A DNA stretch of 30,409 nucleotides from a virus, in the IMG/VR virus record IMGVR_UViG_3300025832_000042, positions 1 through 30,409 of that record. The stretch is one strand, 5' to 3'. Numbering within the stretch: the first letter of the stretch is position 1; each line of letters starts with the position of its first letter. A program made the position numbers and the translations under genes. A model generated the notes under the pieces. That model had not been told where the DNA came from. It did no database searches and was given only the letters and a program-made list of their open reading frames with translations. Positions 5,101-29,865 of this stretch are shown here, piece by piece.

Positions 5101-6567
5101 ATTTCCCCCAATACTATTAATAAATGGGGCAAAGGTTGTTTCTTCTGTTATTACTGATGCTATAGCACTAGAAGTATACCTTACTATTGGTATTGAATCA
5201 GTTGTTGTATTATATGGATTATCTCTTTCAAGAAAGTATACATTTGGAGAATTTTTATTAATTGAATATTCTCCGTTTAAATCATATGGTTGTCCTTCTG
5301 TAAAGTTAGAGTACAGTATTCTATTTCTAGATGTAATAGATTGTGCCTTTGCTTTCCTTGGAATCCATGACATTAATTGTGATGTGTCATTTGTGTCTAA
5401 TGGCATTTGGGCTTTAGATCCATCAAAAATATATTGTATTTGTACACCATCATCATATACATATGATTCGTAATCTGTGATGTCTAAATTTTCTGCTAAT
5501 TGCCAATCTGATGGTGTTCTATCATCCATAGATCTTCTTACAGCAATCTTTATACTTTTATATACTGATGCATCTGGTGCATCTATATATAAACGTATAC
5601 TGTTGTTTAATAATCTACTATTATTATAAGTATCAATATTTATTATACTATCTAATTCTGCTTCTGGTGCAAGAAATTTATTTATAGGACTCCAACAACT
5701 TTCTCTACCGTCTGCTCTAACATACTTTACTTTAAATTGAAATAAACTACCTTCTAAAAAATTGTAATCAGCATTAGCTGATTCGTAATTACCCTCTACT
5801 TGATTACTATGTTTCTTTACAATATTTGTAAAATTTTCTTCTGTGTGATTACCGTAAATAAATCCTGCTGGACATATTTCCCAATCACTTTGAGGGTTTG
5901 AATTAGTTAAGTCAACTGTTGGGTTTTGTGTTGTTGTCTTATTAGCTCTATAATATATTGTTATTTGACTAAGAGAACCACTAGTTGCCCTTATAGCTAT
6001 TTCTCTACTGTAAACATCATCCTTGTTTACTGTTGCGGGGGAGACTGTATCAAAATCCCCTAGAAACTTTCTATAGGTATATAGACCACTATCTGTAGTA
6101 GTGTCATATGTACGTATTCCCGCCTGTACGTCTATGTTCTTTGGTTCACCATAGTTATCAGTGAACAGTAAGTACTCTGTGCTTTGATCTGCCACTACAT
6201 TTATAGCAGTGACTAAATAGTCTACGTTTAAGTCTAACACGTTATTAGAGTCAGAAACAATAGTCTGTACTACACCTTCCTCATAGTTATAAGCAAATAT
6301 TCTGTTATTTCCCCCAGTGTTGTGTACTATGTATATTACTCTGTCATGTGCTTCATCATCGTATGCACCAATAACCCTGTTACCTCCTGCGGGGAGTGTA
6401 ACACTAAATTCTTGATTACCTTCAGCATTAGTTATAACACCAACAGCACCTCTCTCACTGTTACCGTTCCTAATGTTTAAAGCATAACGATACATCCCTG
6501 GAGACATTAATGACTCAGCAAGGTCTTGGTTCATTCCCTTCTCAAATGTTCGCTTTTCTAGTGGCAT
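2110..6567 (-). CDS. Giant tail-tip (muzzle-like) structural protein
   Basis: A 1485-residue protein, the largest in the window. It starts MPLEKRTFEKGMNQDLAES; this opening (a short basic peptide then GMNxDxA...) and its 'rounded' beta-propeller-like repeats of Asp/Tyr/Asn-rich strands are typical of the very large tail protein that follows the ring proteins in crAss-like and other Bacteroidota podoviruses. In the solved crassvirus virion the equivalent protein forms the muzzle at the end of the short tail. It is predominantly predicted beta strand, has no signal peptide and ends in a hydrophobic stretch (YKIISASFDFLISNYTR). It starts two bases after the stop of the upstream 242-aa gene, so the two are co-transcribed. 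The muzzle assignment is by length, gene order and N-terminal pattern. Confidence 0.8.
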   Translation of the reverse strand: MPLEKRTFEKGMNQDLAESLMSPGMYRYALNIRNGNSERGAVGVITNAEGNQEFSVTLPAGGNRVIGAYDDEAHDRVIYIVHNTGGNNRIFAYNYEEGVVQTIVSDSNNVLDLNVDYLVTAINVVADQSTEYLLFTDNYGEPKNIDVQAGIRTYDTTTDSGLYTYRKFLGDFDTVSPATVNKDDVYSREIAIRATSGSLSQITIYYRANKTTTQNPTVDLTNSNPQSDWEICPAGFIYGNHTEENFTNIVKKHSNQVEGNYESANADYNFLEGSLFQFKVKYVRADGRESCWSPINKFLAPEAELDSIINIDTYNNSRLLNNSIRLYIDAPDASVYKSIKIAVRRSMDDRTPSDWQLAENLDITDYESYVYDDGVQIQYIFDGSKAQMPLDTNDTSQLMSWIPRKAKAQSITSRNRILYSNFTEGQPYDLNGEYSINKNSPNVYFLERDNPYNTTTDSIPIVRYTSSAIASVITEETTFAPFINSIGGNGLAFQFPSSVKAGTLYSIKVEISYRLIPGSAATAAGFNQSDYNIKTCSTKVDLIAQTSATSALIDSFVNQINYAKDLYVSAIQTIAKNRYIDNTGFILDKSIATAQSITSGGNDYLLVLPIPKETILAGGGGYPFDVEFFYRKVPRTSVGLNFKSIQSFKRGSQQQFGISYSDKYGRLSTVIEHNAFSQYNPWWIDTNETVGTAFSDIGQRYAQIALNHDAPSWATHYHILKTNSNGINNYVSFPLSIATGLPKLSNGADNPLDGKYYGRGFIRRDIGNVDSTTTLDYDTIDDMELIYIPLTSLQNSLVGYTNLNEAPLAYDFTPGDRIRIAYSLAYGVNRQHIPTTPAAYFESTADAEILFYDTELNSIAIRPNDLPLTLVGTGGIFATDNETGSGVSAGQSKIRGLLCEIYSPTKEKNTEFYYEMFTGTVSADTANSRYYHVGNQQTQNSAQGAVIELDNGDSFIKGRTYTIKSTVTALTNTASTQVFNYFVEEGNFYDKVTSKSWGAGRPNRSIRSTSLEEDITGFLGESVRPTTIRYSEPLLPEQGYNGLGTIHDLNFKDANGAMKSIQHMHTEGSKTIVFHENAVGVAESDRAVITTLDENNMTIGANTPVSDVVYYGTRAGIGTNPESFANNNNRKYFVDIDQGQVCRLSQDGVTPISDAGMDKYFKEVFRDMIKSPQVDYAFGAYDKRTDEYTLNLKWTDTISVTQGGGATFTGSPTFTVQYTADISAYDYYIGQSLVVEGQNYTDDSMVERQGFAPTSVYVSNVSGSTITLQFTEEQWDNSKFTGEGGARRINVYAFKSRTLTYSEKTKSWTSFHSYIPENMTSAGLDFVSFKAGKLYTHDDYNNPMSYYGVDYPSYIDIISNMGGDQVKIWKTMALKATTDDAEVVEADFLIPVSSADTTGSVFPISGGVEDSRGNLSTGTTFISKENQLYSEYMRSGTGTDYTGYIEGDKVRGYWVYTRFKINSGISKIYKIISASFDFLISNYTR

Positions 6568-18295: not shown

Positions 18296-18652
18296 TTAAT
18301 ACTTGACGTTGATGTATAAGTGATTTATCCAGGTATCTTCCTCCCAATATAAATCCCTACCCAAAGCTGCTGCTACAGAAATAAATTGACCTATTGTTTT
18401 TGGTTGTGTGAATATTGGTGTGTCCCAATAAAACAATACACCATGTGGTACACGATTACCTTGTTCATCTAACTCATCAAAGACTTCAAAGTCTGCATCT
18501 TTCTCTGTACGGATGTACTTGTTATAGTTTACCTCCGTCATTGGTTTTGAATAGATGTAATGGATACTTATCAGCTTTTCAACTTTCTTCTCAGGTTTTC
18601 CTGACAATTCTAGTAGGTGCTCATCTAATGGTTTTGCTTTGTACTTTTTCAT
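18296..18652 (-). CDS. Hypothetical 118-aa protein
   Basis: A 118-residue mixed alpha/beta protein, MKKYKAKPLDEHLLELSGK..., rich in Tyr, Trp and acidic residues toward the C-terminus (LYWEEDTWINHLYINVKY). No family recognised. Its ATG overlaps the stop of the 89-aa gene by four bases (ATGA), so the two are coupled, and it precedes the fibre gene. Genes in this place in tailed phages may help fibre assembly, which is only a contextual guess. Confidence 0.6.
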   Translation of the reverse strand: MKKYKAKPLDEHLLELSGKPEKKVEKLISIHYIYSKPMTEVNYNKYIRTEKDADFEVFDELDEQGNRVPHGVLFYWDTPIFTQPKTIGQFISVAAALGRDLYWEEDTWINHLYINVKY

Positions 18653-18918
18653 ACTTTACACGTAATACTCATTGGTATATTCTCAATCACTTTCCATAGT
18701 ATTTCATCACAATCTTTTTTCTTACCAAAGATTAATGCACGACTAATACCATACTCAACTAATGCGTTTTGGTCAAACTCAATACCTGTTATTGTAAGTC
18801 TAGTATCTCTACCACACGTATACTCATTACCAACAGTATATCGAATGTCAGTCTTAGGGTTTATACCCACAGTTACCTCGTGAATATTTTCGTTCTCTAT
18901 AAAATAAAAACTATCCAT
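18649..18918 (-). CDS. Hypothetical 89-aa protein
   Basis: An 89-residue mainly beta protein, MDSFYFIENENIHEVTVGINPKT..., with three cysteines. No family recognised. It is the first gene of a minus-strand unit that diverges from the glycosyltransferase operon on the other strand. A -7 box, TACATTTG, ends four bases before its ATG, so the transcript should have little or no leader. It overlaps the 118-aa gene by four bases. Confidence 0.6.
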   Translation of the reverse strand: MDSFYFIENENIHEVTVGINPKTDIRYTVGNEYTCGRDTRLTITGIEFDQNALVEYGISRALIFGKKKDCDEILWKVIENIPMSITCKV

Positions 18919-18922
18919 TTAA

Positions 18923-18930
18923 CAAATGTA
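18923..18930 (-). promoter_or_regulatory. Bacteroidota -7 promoter element (TACATTTG)
   Basis: Match to TAnnTTTG ending four bases before the ATG at 18918, in the 67-base divergent gap. Pairs with the plus-strand box at 18973 for the glycosyltransferase operon. Confidence 0.45.
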
Positions 18931-18972
18931 ATAAAAAATTAACAAAATTTAACATTTTACCCTATATTTATT

Positions 18973-18980
18973 TATTTTTG
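18973..18980 (+). promoter_or_regulatory. Bacteroidota -7 promoter element (TATTTTTG)
   Basis: Match to TAnnTTTG five bases before the ATG at 18986. This is the only plausible promoter for the plus-strand three-gene operon and again predicts an almost leaderless message. Confidence 0.45.
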
Positions 18981-18985
18981 TTGTG

Positions 18986-19939
18986 ATGAATATTTTAGTT
19001 ATACAGACAACAGACTCTGGTGTTTACTACCATAGACAACGTGCTCCACATTATGCTTGGGAAGAGTCAGGTGATGAGTTTGTAGATGATATAGTTGTTA
19101 TTGTAGAGTCAAACCATAGGGATAAGATAATGGAAGTTATCAATAACTATCATTTTGATATTGTACAGTTTTCTGTATCTAATACCGGGTTTGAACACAT
19201 CCCACACTTCTTAGACTTTATGAAAAGAAGGGGTAGTAAGTTTGTCTTGGATATTGATGACAGGTATCACAAACGCCCGGATGTAAGAAAAGGTATCAAA
19301 CAAGCAGATGCTATCACAACTGTGTCTAAAAACCTTTCAGACTATTACCTCAAGTATGGTGCAAGAAGGCATCCTTATGTAATTGAAAATGGTGTAGACT
19401 CAAAAGAGAGACAGTTCTTTAATTACCCTGTCGCTAATGATCAACCTATATTTGGTTATCTTGGGTCAACAAGACACCAAGCAGATTTACAGATGATGCA
19501 GTATGACTTTAGTTCTAGAGAGTTATTAGTTGTTTGTGAGGAGTATAAAGACATACTTAATGTCAACCACTACACTACACTAAAGCATTGGAATGAATAT
19601 GCCTGGGAATATAATGCAATTGATGTAGCACTAGCACCACTAATAGACACAACCTTTAATAATTCTAAGTCATTCTTAAAAGTTATTGAAGCAGGGTTTA
19701 AAAAGAAAGCGATTATCTGTTCTGATATAGAACCTTACAATAGAAAGATACATGATGATTTCAAAGATGTCATTGACTTAATACCTCTAGGTACATCCTG
19801 GAAAGATCGTATAGAATCTTATACAGTGGAAGAAGCTCATCAACGTGGGGAGGAACTGTACAAACTTGTTCAACCATATGAACTTAGAAATTTAAATAAA
19901 AAACGTAGAGATATCTACCAAGAAATAATTAATAGATAA
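18986..19939 (+). CDS. GT-B glycosyltransferase (GT4-like)
   Basis: A 317-residue protein from ATG 18986 (a GTG codon just before is an alternative). The two-domain GT-B layout is visible: N-terminal Rossmann-like start (MNILVIQTTDSGVYYHR), 'FVLDIDD' and 'ADAITTVSKNLSDYY' with 'ENGVD' in the first domain, then 'IFGYLGSTRHQADL' opening the second domain, and 'VALAPL..TTFNNSKSFLKVIEAGFKKKAIICSD' carrying the nucleotide-sugar binding E-x-A-G segment. The acceptor is unknown: a virion protein, DNA base or host surface are all possible. It is the first gene of a plus-strand operon opposite to the surrounding late genes and overlaps the next start by one base. Confidence 0.85.
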   Translation: MNILVIQTTDSGVYYHRQRAPHYAWEESGDEFVDDIVVIVESNHRDKIMEVINNYHFDIVQFSVSNTGFEHIPHFLDFMKRRGSKFVLDIDDRYHKRPDVRKGIKQADAITTVSKNLSDYYLKYGARRHPYVIENGVDSKERQFFNYPVANDQPIFGYLGSTRHQADLQMMQYDFSSRELLVVCEEYKDILNVNHYTTLKHWNEYAWEYNAIDVALAPLIDTTFNNSKSFLKVIEAGFKKKAIICSDIEPYNRKIHDDFKDVIDLIPLGTSWKDRIESYTVEEAHQRGEELYKLVQPYELRNLNKKRRDIYQEIINR

Positions 19940-20568
19940 TGAGGACAGTTCACTTTTTTGCTACATACTACCAACAGAAAGATGTAACACTTAATTTAGT
20001 GCAATCATTAATGACACAGACATCTGACAATTGGAAATTAACCATATGTTCTAATGGGGATGAATCACTGTTAGAGTTTAAAGACATCTTTACTACTGTT
20101 TACGGTGATGACGATAGAGTTTCATTTAAAATCACAGAAGAGAACAGTGGTCATTGGGGTGCTTTGAATCGTAAAGCATTCATTGAGAATGATTTAAAAG
20201 ATGATGAGTTGTTAGTTAACTGTAGTGTGGAGGATATTTATATACCTAAAACAGTGGAGTATATTAATGAACGTAAAGAGAACTTTATCTATTGGGACTT
20301 CACACACCATCAGTTTGATTATAAAACTTCATTTGCTATTTGCCAACTAAGAGCAAAGAAGGTTGATTGGGGAAGTTATGCTATACTTGGTGAGTATGCA
20401 AAGTCTGTTAAGATGTTACCACACAAGGCAACAAATGAAGGTGAAACAATTGAACAAGATTCTTGGACTAGTTTCTTTGCTGATGGATTATTTGTAGAGT
20501 ATGTATTCAACCAATGTTCGTATATTAGCAACATCCGTATACCTAAAATCTTATTTGTAAAAAACTAA
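19939..20568 (+). CDS. GT-A (GT2-like) glycosyltransferase
   Basis: A 209-residue protein starting MRTVHFFATYYQQKDVTLNL. It shows the GT-A start strand, the helix 'LVQSLMTQTSDNWKLTICSNG' typical of GT2 enzymes and a variant DxD-type metal site at VED (residues 97-99, in NCSVEDIYIPK). The protein is short for the family (usually 230-300), with a reduced C-terminal half, so activity is not certain. Its ATG overlaps the stop of the GT-B gene (TAATG) and it is followed three bases later by the GroES-like gene, indicating a single operon. Two different glycosyltransferases together imply stepwise addition of a short glycan. Confidence 0.75.
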   Translation: MRTVHFFATYYQQKDVTLNLVQSLMTQTSDNWKLTICSNGDESLLEFKDIFTTVYGDDDRVSFKITEENSGHWGALNRKAFIENDLKDDELLVNCSVEDIYIPKTVEYINERKENFIYWDFTHHQFDYKTSFAICQLRAKKVDWGSYAILGEYAKSVKMLPHKATNEGETIEQDSWTSFFADGLFVEYVFNQCSYISNIRIPKILFVKN

Positions 20569-20571
20569 ATC

Positions 20572-21384
20572 ATGTTTGATTCAATTGAAAACTTTATACC
20601 AACAGATACATACTTTGTCAAGGTTGACATGGAAGCTGTACACACATATACTACGGAAGGTGGTATGGAATTTTATCATCCCCATAATGCTGGTGATATG
20701 TATCAGAATAAACCTATGCATGGTGAACTTACGAATGCACCAAAGAATGCTACAATACCGATTGGGTCAACTGTTTATCTTAACTATCTTGCTTCTGAGT
20801 CGTTTATTAAAATTGGGGGTGATGAGTACTACATAATCAAGGAAGGTATGATAGTATCTTATGATGTAGACGGTGAACGTAAAGCATATAAGTCTGTACT
20901 ACTTACCCCAATTAAAGAAGATGATGACTCTAATATAATAGTAGACTTGTCTGAGGATGAGTTGATGGATGCTGTAATGAATGGGGGAGATAAGAAGACT
21001 AATAAGTACACTACTTGTGGTGAAGTAATAGATGCTGACAATGAGTGGTTAGAGAAGGAGTTTGGGTTTACACTGTCTGCGGGGGATATTATTGAGTACG
21101 AGTCAGCGTTAGATTGGGAGTATATTGTGAACAGAACATCATACTACTACATTCAGTGGGCAAATAGAATCATACGAAAAGGTGATGAAATAATTAATAC
21201 CTATAATGAGATTCTACCTATTCCAAAATATATTGAAAAGAATGGTTTAATAATCAAAAACACTGGTAGGTTTACCCCGGTAGTTGATGGTAAGTTTAAA
21301 GGTAAAAAGGTTTTACCCGAAACTAAAAATATAGATATGGGTAGGTATATTAAGAGTGAGTTTATATATGGTCACTTAGAGTAA
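20572..21384 (+). CDS. Tandem GroES-like (co-chaperonin fold) protein
   Basis: A 270-residue protein with two apparent GroES-type beta barrels. In the first (about 13-114): YFVKV.MEAV...GGMEFYHP.., a flexible stretch in place of the mobile loop, HGELTNAPK, IPIGSTVYLNYL, DEYYIIKEGMIVSY. In the second (about 145-220): TTCGEVIDADNEW, LSAGDIIEYES, SYYYIQWANRII. An acidic linker separates them. Phage GroES analogues (T4 gp31 type) replace or adjust the host co-chaperonin so that GroEL can fold the capsid protein; a fused pair is unusual. The assignment is from pattern spacing only, with weak residue identity. It ends overlapping a convergent minus-strand gene by 23 bases. Confidence 0.6.
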   Translation: MFDSIENFIPTDTYFVKVDMEAVHTYTTEGGMEFYHPHNAGDMYQNKPMHGELTNAPKNATIPIGSTVYLNYLASESFIKIGGDEYYIIKEGMIVSYDVDGERKAYKSVLLTPIKEDDDSNIIVDLSEDELMDAVMNGGDKKTNKYTTCGEVIDADNEWLEKEFGFTLSAGDIIEYESALDWEYIVNRTSYYYIQWANRIIRKGDEIINTYNEILPIPKYIEKNGLIIKNTGRFTPVVDGKFKGKKVLPETKNIDMGRYIKSEFIYGHLE

Positions 21385-21526
21385 AGTGATCCCCAACTTC
21401 TTTTTCAAACCAAGGGTGTGACTCACCAACAGTTACGTACCCCTTTACTTCATTACTATTGGGTGCAGCAAAATGTAATGTTTTACTAAACCCTCTGTCC
21501 TCTATTAAGTCTATTCTTAGATTCAT
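21362..21526 (-). CDS. Hypothetical 54-aa protein
   Basis: A short gene, ATG at 21526 and TAA at 21364-21362, MNLRIDLIEDRGFSKTLHF..., with a YVTVGE segment and an aromatic, acidic C-terminus. No family recognised. The ATG overlaps the stop of the 98-aa gene (ATGA), which is good evidence that it is translated. It overlaps the end of the convergent GroES-like gene by 23 bases. Confidence 0.55.
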   Translation of the reverse strand: MNLRIDLIEDRGFSKTLHFAAPNSNEVKGYVTVGESHPWFEKEVGDHFTLSDHI

Positions 21527-28504: not shown

Positions 28505-28771
28505 CTATTTTGTAGTTTTATGTAATAACTCATACAGGTGGTCTGTTGCATCTACCGCCCATGTAAAAGCATCTAAATACCTCTCATCACCATGATACTC
28601 ATCTAATGACCTCAATACTACACTTAGTATATTATCTTGGGTTTGTTTAGTGTTAATACTGTACAATATCCCATCTTCATGCCTGTCATAGGTAGACTCA
28701 AGTGGTATGTCTATAATCTCTAAGAAGATTGGTACTGTTATCCCACCTTCGGGTATATATCCTGACTTCAT
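28505..28771 (-). CDS. Hypothetical 88-aa protein
   Basis: An 88-residue protein, MKSGYIPEGGITVPIFLEI..., with an N-terminal beta part and a helical C-terminal half (DNILSVVLRSLDEYHG, FTWAVDATDHLYELL). No family recognised. It is the first minus-strand gene beside the intergenic control region and precedes the portal gene by 69 bases, with a promoter box between, so it may be transcribed with or separately from the late module. Confidence 0.6.
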   Translation of the reverse strand: MKSGYIPEGGITVPIFLEIIDIPLESTYDRHEDGILYSINTKQTQDNILSVVLRSLDEYHGDERYLDAFTWAVDATDHLYELLHKTTK

Positions 28772-28807: not shown

Positions 28808-28815
28808 TATATTTG
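28808..28815 (+). promoter_or_regulatory. Plus-strand -7 box (TATATTTG) inside an imperfect palindrome
   Basis: Match to TAnnTTTG, about 25 bases upstream of the terminator hairpin at 28841. The box lies in the near-palindrome ACTATATTTGTAAATAGT (28806-28823), which could be an operator for a dimeric repressor. Confidence 0.4.
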
Positions 28816-28840
28816 TAAATAGTTTCATGATTATTTGTTT

Positions 28841-28879
28841 AATGGAGGTGTAGATATAATGTTTACATCTCCATTTTTT
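28841..28879 (+). terminator. Strong plus-strand intrinsic terminator, attenuator-like
   Basis: A 15-bp stem (28841-28855 with 28861-28875, loop ATAAT) overlaps a run of six T's (28874-28879). Three pairs are G-U in the plus-strand RNA and would be A-C mismatches on the other strand, so the plus strand is the transcribed one. There is no plus-strand gene upstream to terminate. It sits just after a -7 box and before the hairpin-rich region, so it could attenuate that transcript. Confidence 0.75.
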
Positions 28880-29281
28880 AGCAACATAAACAAAACATTG
28901 ATAGGTGTTACGTACTAGTTGACCTTAACTCAACTCAAGCAATTAACTGTAAAGTTAATTTAGACTATAAACTACGGGTTTAAATCCAGGCAATGACCAA
29001 CCATGTCAACCTGGTCATAAGCGGAGGAGTTACTAACGTAACTTTTAAATAGAACCCACAGTATGCAGGGCTGATGTAGTGGAGGTAGTAAAGATTATAT
29101 ATAGATAAATATATATCTATAATTAAACATATAGTCTTGACACTAGCGGTTCTCTTAGTACCGCAGGAATAGATGGTCTGTACCCATACCCTAAGTGATA
29201 TATACCTATTGTCGACGGGTAGTGTTTCTGAAACCCTCTCATAGTAAGACTTACAGAAGGGGGTGTGTAAAGTAATTTTTT
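28880..29281 (+). ncRNA. Candidate large structured RNA (about 350-400 nt)
   Basis: No gene fits between 28,772 and 29,335. Hairpins found by eye on the plus strand: 28917-28935 (AGTTGA/TCAACT), 28941-28960 (AATTAAC/GTTAATT), a branch closed by 28976-28980/29053-29057 (GGGTT/AACCC) holding 28993-29018 (ATGACCA/TGGTCAT) and 29028-29043 (AGTTAC/GTAACT), 29091-29138 (10 bp plus an inner 7-bp ATAGATA/TATCTAT), 29146-29164 (GCGGT/ACCGC), and 29233-29264 (7 bp with inner GTAA/TTAC), then a T-run at 29275-29281. G-U pairs in several stems favour a plus-strand RNA. Order and density exceed what leader regions show elsewhere in this window. I cannot match it to a known family such as group I introns, tmRNA, RNase P, GOLLD or ROOL. 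It could also be a long 5' leader of the early genes or a cis replication element. Confidence 0.5.
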
Positions 29282-29335: not shown

Positions 29336-29359
29336 ATGAAACCTAATGCTAAGATATGA
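29336..29359 (+). CDS. Possible 7-aa leader peptide ahead of the 72-aa gene
   Basis: The frame MKPNAKI ends in TGA that overlaps the next ATG (ATGA). It is the usual coupling geometry of this phage, but so short that chance is likely. Confidence 0.2.
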   Translation: MKPNAKI

Positions 29360-29574
29360 AAACATATATTTTAATCATAGTGCTTGGGACAACCAACCCA
29401 TCATTTGATACTATAAGACACGATACGATACGATATGATACGATAAAGTATTCAAACGTACAAACACGAAAAGACCTAAAGATTATAAAGCAGTTCTACA
29501 AGAGGGATGCCCTCATGATAAGTATTGACAGTACTGGTCAGAATAGAGAAACTAATAACAGAATACCCCAATGA
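29356..29574 (+). CDS. Hypothetical 72-aa protein with CGATA-repeat region
   Basis: A 72-residue frame, MKTYILIIVLGTTNPSF, then a repetitive Asp/Thr/Ile/Arg/Tyr segment (DTIRHDTIRYDTIKY, residues about 19-33) and a basic C-terminus (TRKDLKIIKQFYKRDALM). The N-terminal ten residues are hydrophobic but too short for a clear signal. The repeat at DNA level is CGATA, which may matter as DNA rather than as protein. It is the first of the plus-strand early-type genes. Reality of the gene is moderately supported by an uninterrupted frame and position; no family recognised. Confidence 0.45.
   Translation: MKTYILIIVLGTTNPSFDTIRHDTIRYDTIKYSNVQTRKDLKIIKQFYKRDALMISIDSTGQNRETNNRIPQ
29421..29445 (+). repeat. 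Short tandem repeat, five CGATA-type units
   Basis: CGATA x3, one TGATA, then CGATA, with a 15-base higher-order period at the protein level. It lies near the start of the early gene arm. Possibly iteron-like. Confidence 0.75.
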
Positions 29575-29610
29575 TTAAGAATTGGGTAAAGAAATAAGAA
29601 AAAAACTATT

Positions 29611-29865
29611 ATGGAGAATGAAGAACACTACGAGTACACAGCAATCAGACGAGGTAACGTAGAAATAGCTTGTATAATCGTAGACGATGTATACGATTCT
29701 GAAACAACACACCTTACAATCTATAACGAAGAGGATAAATGTATCATGTCATTCATATCCCCCGAAGAAATATATGACTTCACCAAGGACATAATGATAA
29801 CAGACACCATCTACGATGACCTCCATCTAGCAATGCAAAGAGCACACACCTATGAGTGGATTTGA
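29611..29865 (+). CDS. Hypothetical 84-aa acidic protein
   Basis: An 84-residue acidic protein, MENEEHYEYTAIRRGNVEIA..., predicted beta then helix (FISPEEIYDFTKDIMITD). No family recognised. It overlaps the nuclease gene by 14 bases, so the two are expressed together. Third positions are A/C-rich, unlike the T/A-rich late genes. Confidence 0.65.
   Translation: MENEEHYEYTAIRRGNVEIACIIVDDVYDSETTHLTIYNEEDKCIMSFISPEEIYDFTKDIMITDTIYDDLHLAMQRAHTYEWI

Follow-up and report, generated by a model that had tools for sequence, protein, structure and literature searches.

A conserved structured RNA at the divergent junction of a distant relative of Cellulophaga phage phi38:1

The divergent junction and its homologues

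The window analysed here is a 30,409-base virus record (IMGVR_UViG_3300025832_000042) whose minus strand encodes large terminase, portal, major-head-like and crAss-type muzzle proteins. The phage is a distant relative of Cellulophaga phi38:1 (portal ~27% identical), and its closest named phages are the Cellulophaga phi38:1-like, Maribacter Panino and Flavobacterium elemo phages, with portals ~26–28% identical. Three plus-strand ORFs lie within the minus-strand structural operon at 18983–21384; one encodes a glycosyltransferase, one a protein of no assigned function, and one has a weak GroES-like match. The minus-strand operon ends at 28771 and the early ORFs on the plus strand start at 29356 or 29611. 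The region between them had been described in a first-pass annotation, made from the sequence alone, as a non-coding stretch in a divergent control region. This description is borne out, as the ORFs there are chance ones that do not exceed 39 aa, and a search for a conserved open frame of the kind expected of a protein-coding leader found no frame longer than 47 aa and none that is shared. ARAGORN found no tRNA or tmRNA (tRNA-like fold) in the whole window. A tandem repeat of about eight GATAC-like units just past this region (29407–29445) is a possible binding or replication site.

Relatives were found via their capsid protein, and the region upstream of portal was then inspected by synteny. 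One of them, L003 (IMGVR 3300010316_000079, identical in 3300022200_003589), carries at the same junction, on the equivalent strand, a sequence that is clearly related, and a DNA pattern built from the shared motifs found a third homologue in L040 (IMGVR 3300006802_013820). All three phages thus have the sequence at the divergent junction on the early-gene strand. The L003 and L040 RNAs are 97% identical beside first genes that are related to each other but only 50% identical in protein, and these two phages share 92% identical early-module DNA over 649 bases, a similarity that ends abruptly at a TATATTTG motif just upstream of the RNA. Compared with the window, L040 has a portal of only 33% and a terminase of only 28% identity, which argues that the RNA accompanies the early module rather than the virion module. 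The window early ORFs have no match in L003 or L040; the genes that follow the RNA are not the same from phage to phage, and so it is tied to no single gene.

No homologue beyond L003/L004 and L040 was found by four DNA-pattern scans of viral contigs, by a genome pattern scan, by BLAST of phage and plasmid sequences, or in ~790 Bacteroidota genomes. This absence is weak evidence, because a plain DNA search with the window misses even L003. Three genome matches at E 0.002–0.009 per genome were rejected as the chance expectation for 395 genomes, and candidates in L024, L032, L275 and L010 were rejected as coding sequence or chance-level. Two other relatives have features of their own: L008 lacks the RNA and has an IS605-type OrfB/TnpB gene (5226–6059) at the same portal-adjacent junction, and in L010 (IMGVR 3300038585_000120) the large terminase gene (18306–21407) is split by what appears to be an intein, an in-frame insertion that carries LAGLIDADG homing-endonuclease domains.

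A shared fold of nested three-way junctions

The first-pass annotation had seen an array of stem-loops at 28880–29281 and had asked whether it folds more stably than shuffled sequence. That advantage is weak and close to failing (z −1.5, with 7 of 100 shuffles as good; z −0.72 for the core defined below), so single-sequence folding alone is insufficient and the comparison of homologues carries the claim. But are the pairings kept when the sequence changes? A joint fold-and-align program that combines stacking energies with alignment was written for this analysis, and its null distribution was obtained as follows: the L003 bases were shuffled over those columns in which L003 and the window disagree, while the conserved columns were held fixed. 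Joint folding of positions 28896–29090 with L003 gave z = 6.05 on the plus strand (none of 300 permutations as good) and 2.99 on the minus strand, an asymmetry that agrees with the earlier suggestion of a plus-strand RNA; the whole region gave 5.7 and 2.8, respectively. An initial scoring by pair probabilities had been dropped since it yielded scattered lone pairs, and RNAalifold on MAFFT alignments was set aside because the helices were misaligned.

Without guidance the joint fold of window and L003 returns a single structure, P1 to P7, with 40 pairs. Every one of these is a standard pair in both sequences and 24 have changed on both sides, and identity is 38% at paired positions (30/80) and 70% at unpaired ones (80/115). 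The two-sided compensating changes exceed the null in a comparison of two independent lineages, the window on one side and the near-identical L003 and L040 on the other. The homologues therefore keep pairings, and the annotation's proviso that they might keep none is answered by the many two-sided changes. A covariance model built from the window alone matches both L003 and L040 at E ~1e-14; the fitted alignment has 98.2% of its cells paired versus 25–51% when slid, a figure to be read with the leaning of the alignment towards its own structure in mind. L003 and L040 differ at six core sites, of which two make a compensating G-C to U-A change in P2 and four are unpaired. The overlap of base-pair probabilities between window and L003, computed unguided, showed no excess agreement, since L003 on thermodynamic grounds folds differently.

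The fold is a conserved double three-way junction on the plus strand, in which the stems vary and the joining strands are conserved. The core (28896..29090, from the joint fold and the covariance-model match; all features below are on the plus strand) is ~190 nt long and has eight helices counting P5a: P1 and P2 are followed by a P3-P4-P7 three-way junction, and at the far end of the P4 arm P5 and P6 form a second three-way junction with it. P1 (28903–28906 with 28922–28925) is AGGU/ACCU here and AAGC/GCUU in L003/L040, and 3′ of it the alignment places a conserved unpaired strand, AACUCAACUCAA (28927..28938), which reads AACUCAACCCAA in L003/L040. The P2 hairpin (28942–28948 with 28953–28959) shows two-sided changes throughout the three phages (AUUAACU/AGUUAAU in the window, CAGCAGG/UCUGCUG in L003 and CAUCAGG/UCUGAUG in L040).

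P3 closes the inner three-way junction (28971–28975 with 29076–29080; ACUAC/GUAGU versus UUAAC/GUUAA in L003); its first register, which used the second GUAGU, was replaced by one with the first GUAGU, and the L003 model score rose from 58.4 to 63.4 bits. P4 (28976–28980 with 29053–29057; GGGUU/AACCC), placed by the joint fold, together with P5 and P6 is the closed GGGTT/AACCC branch with two sub-hairpins that had already been picked out in the window alone. Joining strand J4/5 (UAAAU, 28981–28985) leads into P5 (28986–28990 with 29010–29014), which carries the least certain helix, P5a (28994–28997 with 29005–29008), at whose position L003 can form a different, stronger hairpin. J5/6 (UCAUAAGCGGAGG, 29015–29027), in which UCANAAGCG is conserved, connects to hairpin P6 (29028–29033 with 29038–29043; AGUUAC/GUAACU versus GCAGUA/UGCUGU in L003). 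Hairpin P7 (29059–29062 with 29070–29073; CAGU/GCUG versus CCAU/AUGG) has a conserved AUGCAGG loop, of which UGCAGG is kept. Directly 3′ of P3 the window, L003 and L040 have in common a GGAGG (29081..29085 in the window), which is Shine-Dalgarno-like and has no following start codon.

Downstream of ~29095 no structure is shared with L003 (joint fold tested to 29200, z −0.9). Thus the array first described at 28880–29281 is supported at 28896–29090, and its boundaries and its 3′ third (29095–29281) are not. Within that 3′ part the block AGUACCGCAGGAAUAGA (29157..29173) is conserved in sequence and its structure is unsupported by the same joint fold. The T-run that had been taken to mark the end of the RNA is present (29276–29281), but it lies ~100 nt past the end of what is conserved, and the hairpin that precedes it does not exceed chance (z −0.32). 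Also rejected, for want of support in the joint fold, were P8-like hairpins 3′ of the core and a long-range AGACUAUA/UAUAGUCU helix that the window on its own had suggested.

The start of the RNA and its possible roles

The −7 box of flavobacterial promoters is TAnnTTTG at −12 to −5 (PMC9723704), and with the motif of L003 and L040 in that position transcription is predicted to begin (+1) at the C of CATTGATA, which is also the first base of the block that these two phages have in common with the window. The window has TATATTTG as a candidate promoter −7 element (28808..28815), the same motif that stands directly before the RNA in L003/L040; a single TAnnTTTG match means little, as the window has 45 where 36 are expected. 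The TTACTATATTTG motif of the window is ~80 nt farther upstream of the RNA than in L003/L040, and a terminator-like 16-bp hairpin followed by U6 (28841..28879), present in the window and absent in L003/L040, lies between motif and RNA (28816–28885 folds at −22.7 kcal/mol, z −5.9). This arrangement counts against placing the window RNA at the 5′ end of an early transcript. In L003/L040 a second promoter-like element, TACTTTTA, can be read by eye between the RNA and the first ORF, so the first gene could run without the RNA, which counts against an action in cis. No intrinsic terminator was found in L003 between the RNA and the first gene, and none within its early operon; the latter leaves nothing seen for an antiterminator to overcome and likewise counts against a cis mechanism.

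We conclude with high confidence that this is a real, conserved, structured and uncatalogued RNA, and the annotation's proposal of a structured plus-strand RNA of a possibly new class gains support from the kept pairings, the two-sided changes and the Rfam result (below). What it does is much less certain. The reading that we favour, tentatively, is that it is a structured noncoding RNA at the 5′ end of the early transcript that works in cis. Transcription would be early, from a host-type promoter; the nascent RNA would fold when the early operon is entered, and the folded RNA might then act on the transcript or on the elongating host RNA polymerase, whichever gene follows, with higher processivity or message stabilisation as the effect. 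The difference in early genes speaks against a single-gene switch and favours a role that does not depend on the gene, in cis or in trans.

A stand-alone RNA acting in trans, which would use its conserved unpaired strands to bind a host macromolecule (for example the ribosome, RNA polymerase or a defence component), is a serious but less favoured possibility. It would account for an RNA that is kept while the neighbouring gene changes, for the 97% identity of the L003 and L040 RNAs beside much more diverged first genes, for the conservation of the unpaired strands and for the possible separate promoter ahead of the first gene; against it, L003 shows no intrinsic terminator that would define a 3′ end, and the sole T-run of the window has no good hairpin. 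The evidence does not separate the cis and trans models, and cis is put slightly ahead because the RNA would head the early transcript and no intrinsic terminator follows it in L003.

A riboswitch-like or autoregulatory leader that controls one gene via a ligand or protein would suit the leader position and the junction architecture with conserved joining strands, but the first genes of the window and L003/L040 differ and no Rfam riboswitch matches, which makes it rather improbable. Less probable again is a DNA-level element (a replication origin or single-strand hairpins): the divergent-junction location and the nearby GATAC-like repeat would fit one, but the two-sided changes favour the plus strand and in L003/L040 the block begins at the predicted transcription start. 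Accidental hairpins in AT-rich intergenic sequence, with which the weak single-sequence fold and the pair-probability result agree, are contradicted by the joint-fold null and by homologous sequence at a syntenic place, and we regard chance as very improbable. A packaging RNA was set aside as unlikely, since the RNA in L040 accompanies the early module, not the portal and terminase genes.

Shine-Dalgarno sites are lacking from Bacteroidetes mRNAs, although the ribosomes retain the anti-Shine-Dalgarno (PMC6847099); with a GGAGG common to all three RNAs, this makes ribosome binding worth testing, nothing more. It is possible, though doubtful, that these RNAs form an undescribed class of autonomous folded RNAs, borne by the early module of Bacteroidetes phages and exchanged among them independently of virion genes, that seizes the host polymerase or, via GGAGG, the ribosomal anti-Shine-Dalgarno. 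Should the RNA act on the polymerase or ribosomes of the host, it would give phages outside the lambdoid group a protein-free device for takeover. It is small enough for probing, sits where early gene expression begins and is exchanged together with the early module. To our knowledge, few phage RNAs of such size are known, their functions are mostly unknown, and early takeover by Bacteroidetes phages has been little studied.

Comparison with known RNAs

The first-pass annotation recognised no hallmark of the known large phage RNAs, and a search against Rfam 15 (4227 families, among them GOLLD, ROOL, tmRNA, group I intron, 6S and RNase P) agrees in giving no match at gathering score; permissive searches up to E 10 gave chance-level matches only. 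Elsewhere in the window, 29529–29613 has a weak and probably chance match to RAGATH-17 (26.6 bits versus a cut-off of 102.3, E 0.6). The RNA resembles riboswitches and the leader RNAs of Rfam in its leader position and conserved joining strands, and differs from them in giving no match in those same searches, either at the gathering threshold or, apart from chance-level hits, up to E 10. ROOL and GOLLD are large structured phage RNAs of unknown function that are often found beside tRNA genes (PMC12286853); the RNA described here is smaller, matches neither in Rfam, and is in a window with no tRNA genes.

The nearest likeness is to the put RNAs of phage HK022 (putL and putR), cis-acting elements that follow early promoters (PMC9378689), and it is one of predicted position only, near the start of an early transcript. 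In L003/L040 the predicted start coincides with the start of the RNA, from a promoter that is itself predicted. The put RNAs are ~70 nt with two stem-loops and act on E. coli RNA polymerase, which they render terminator-resistant in cis, whereas the core here is ~190 nt with eight helices in nested three-way junctions and comes from a different host phylum; the comparison was one of size, architecture and position. We therefore do not count it as a put RNA, and suggest with some reserve that its mechanism may be put-like, acting in cis on the transcript or the host RNA polymerase.
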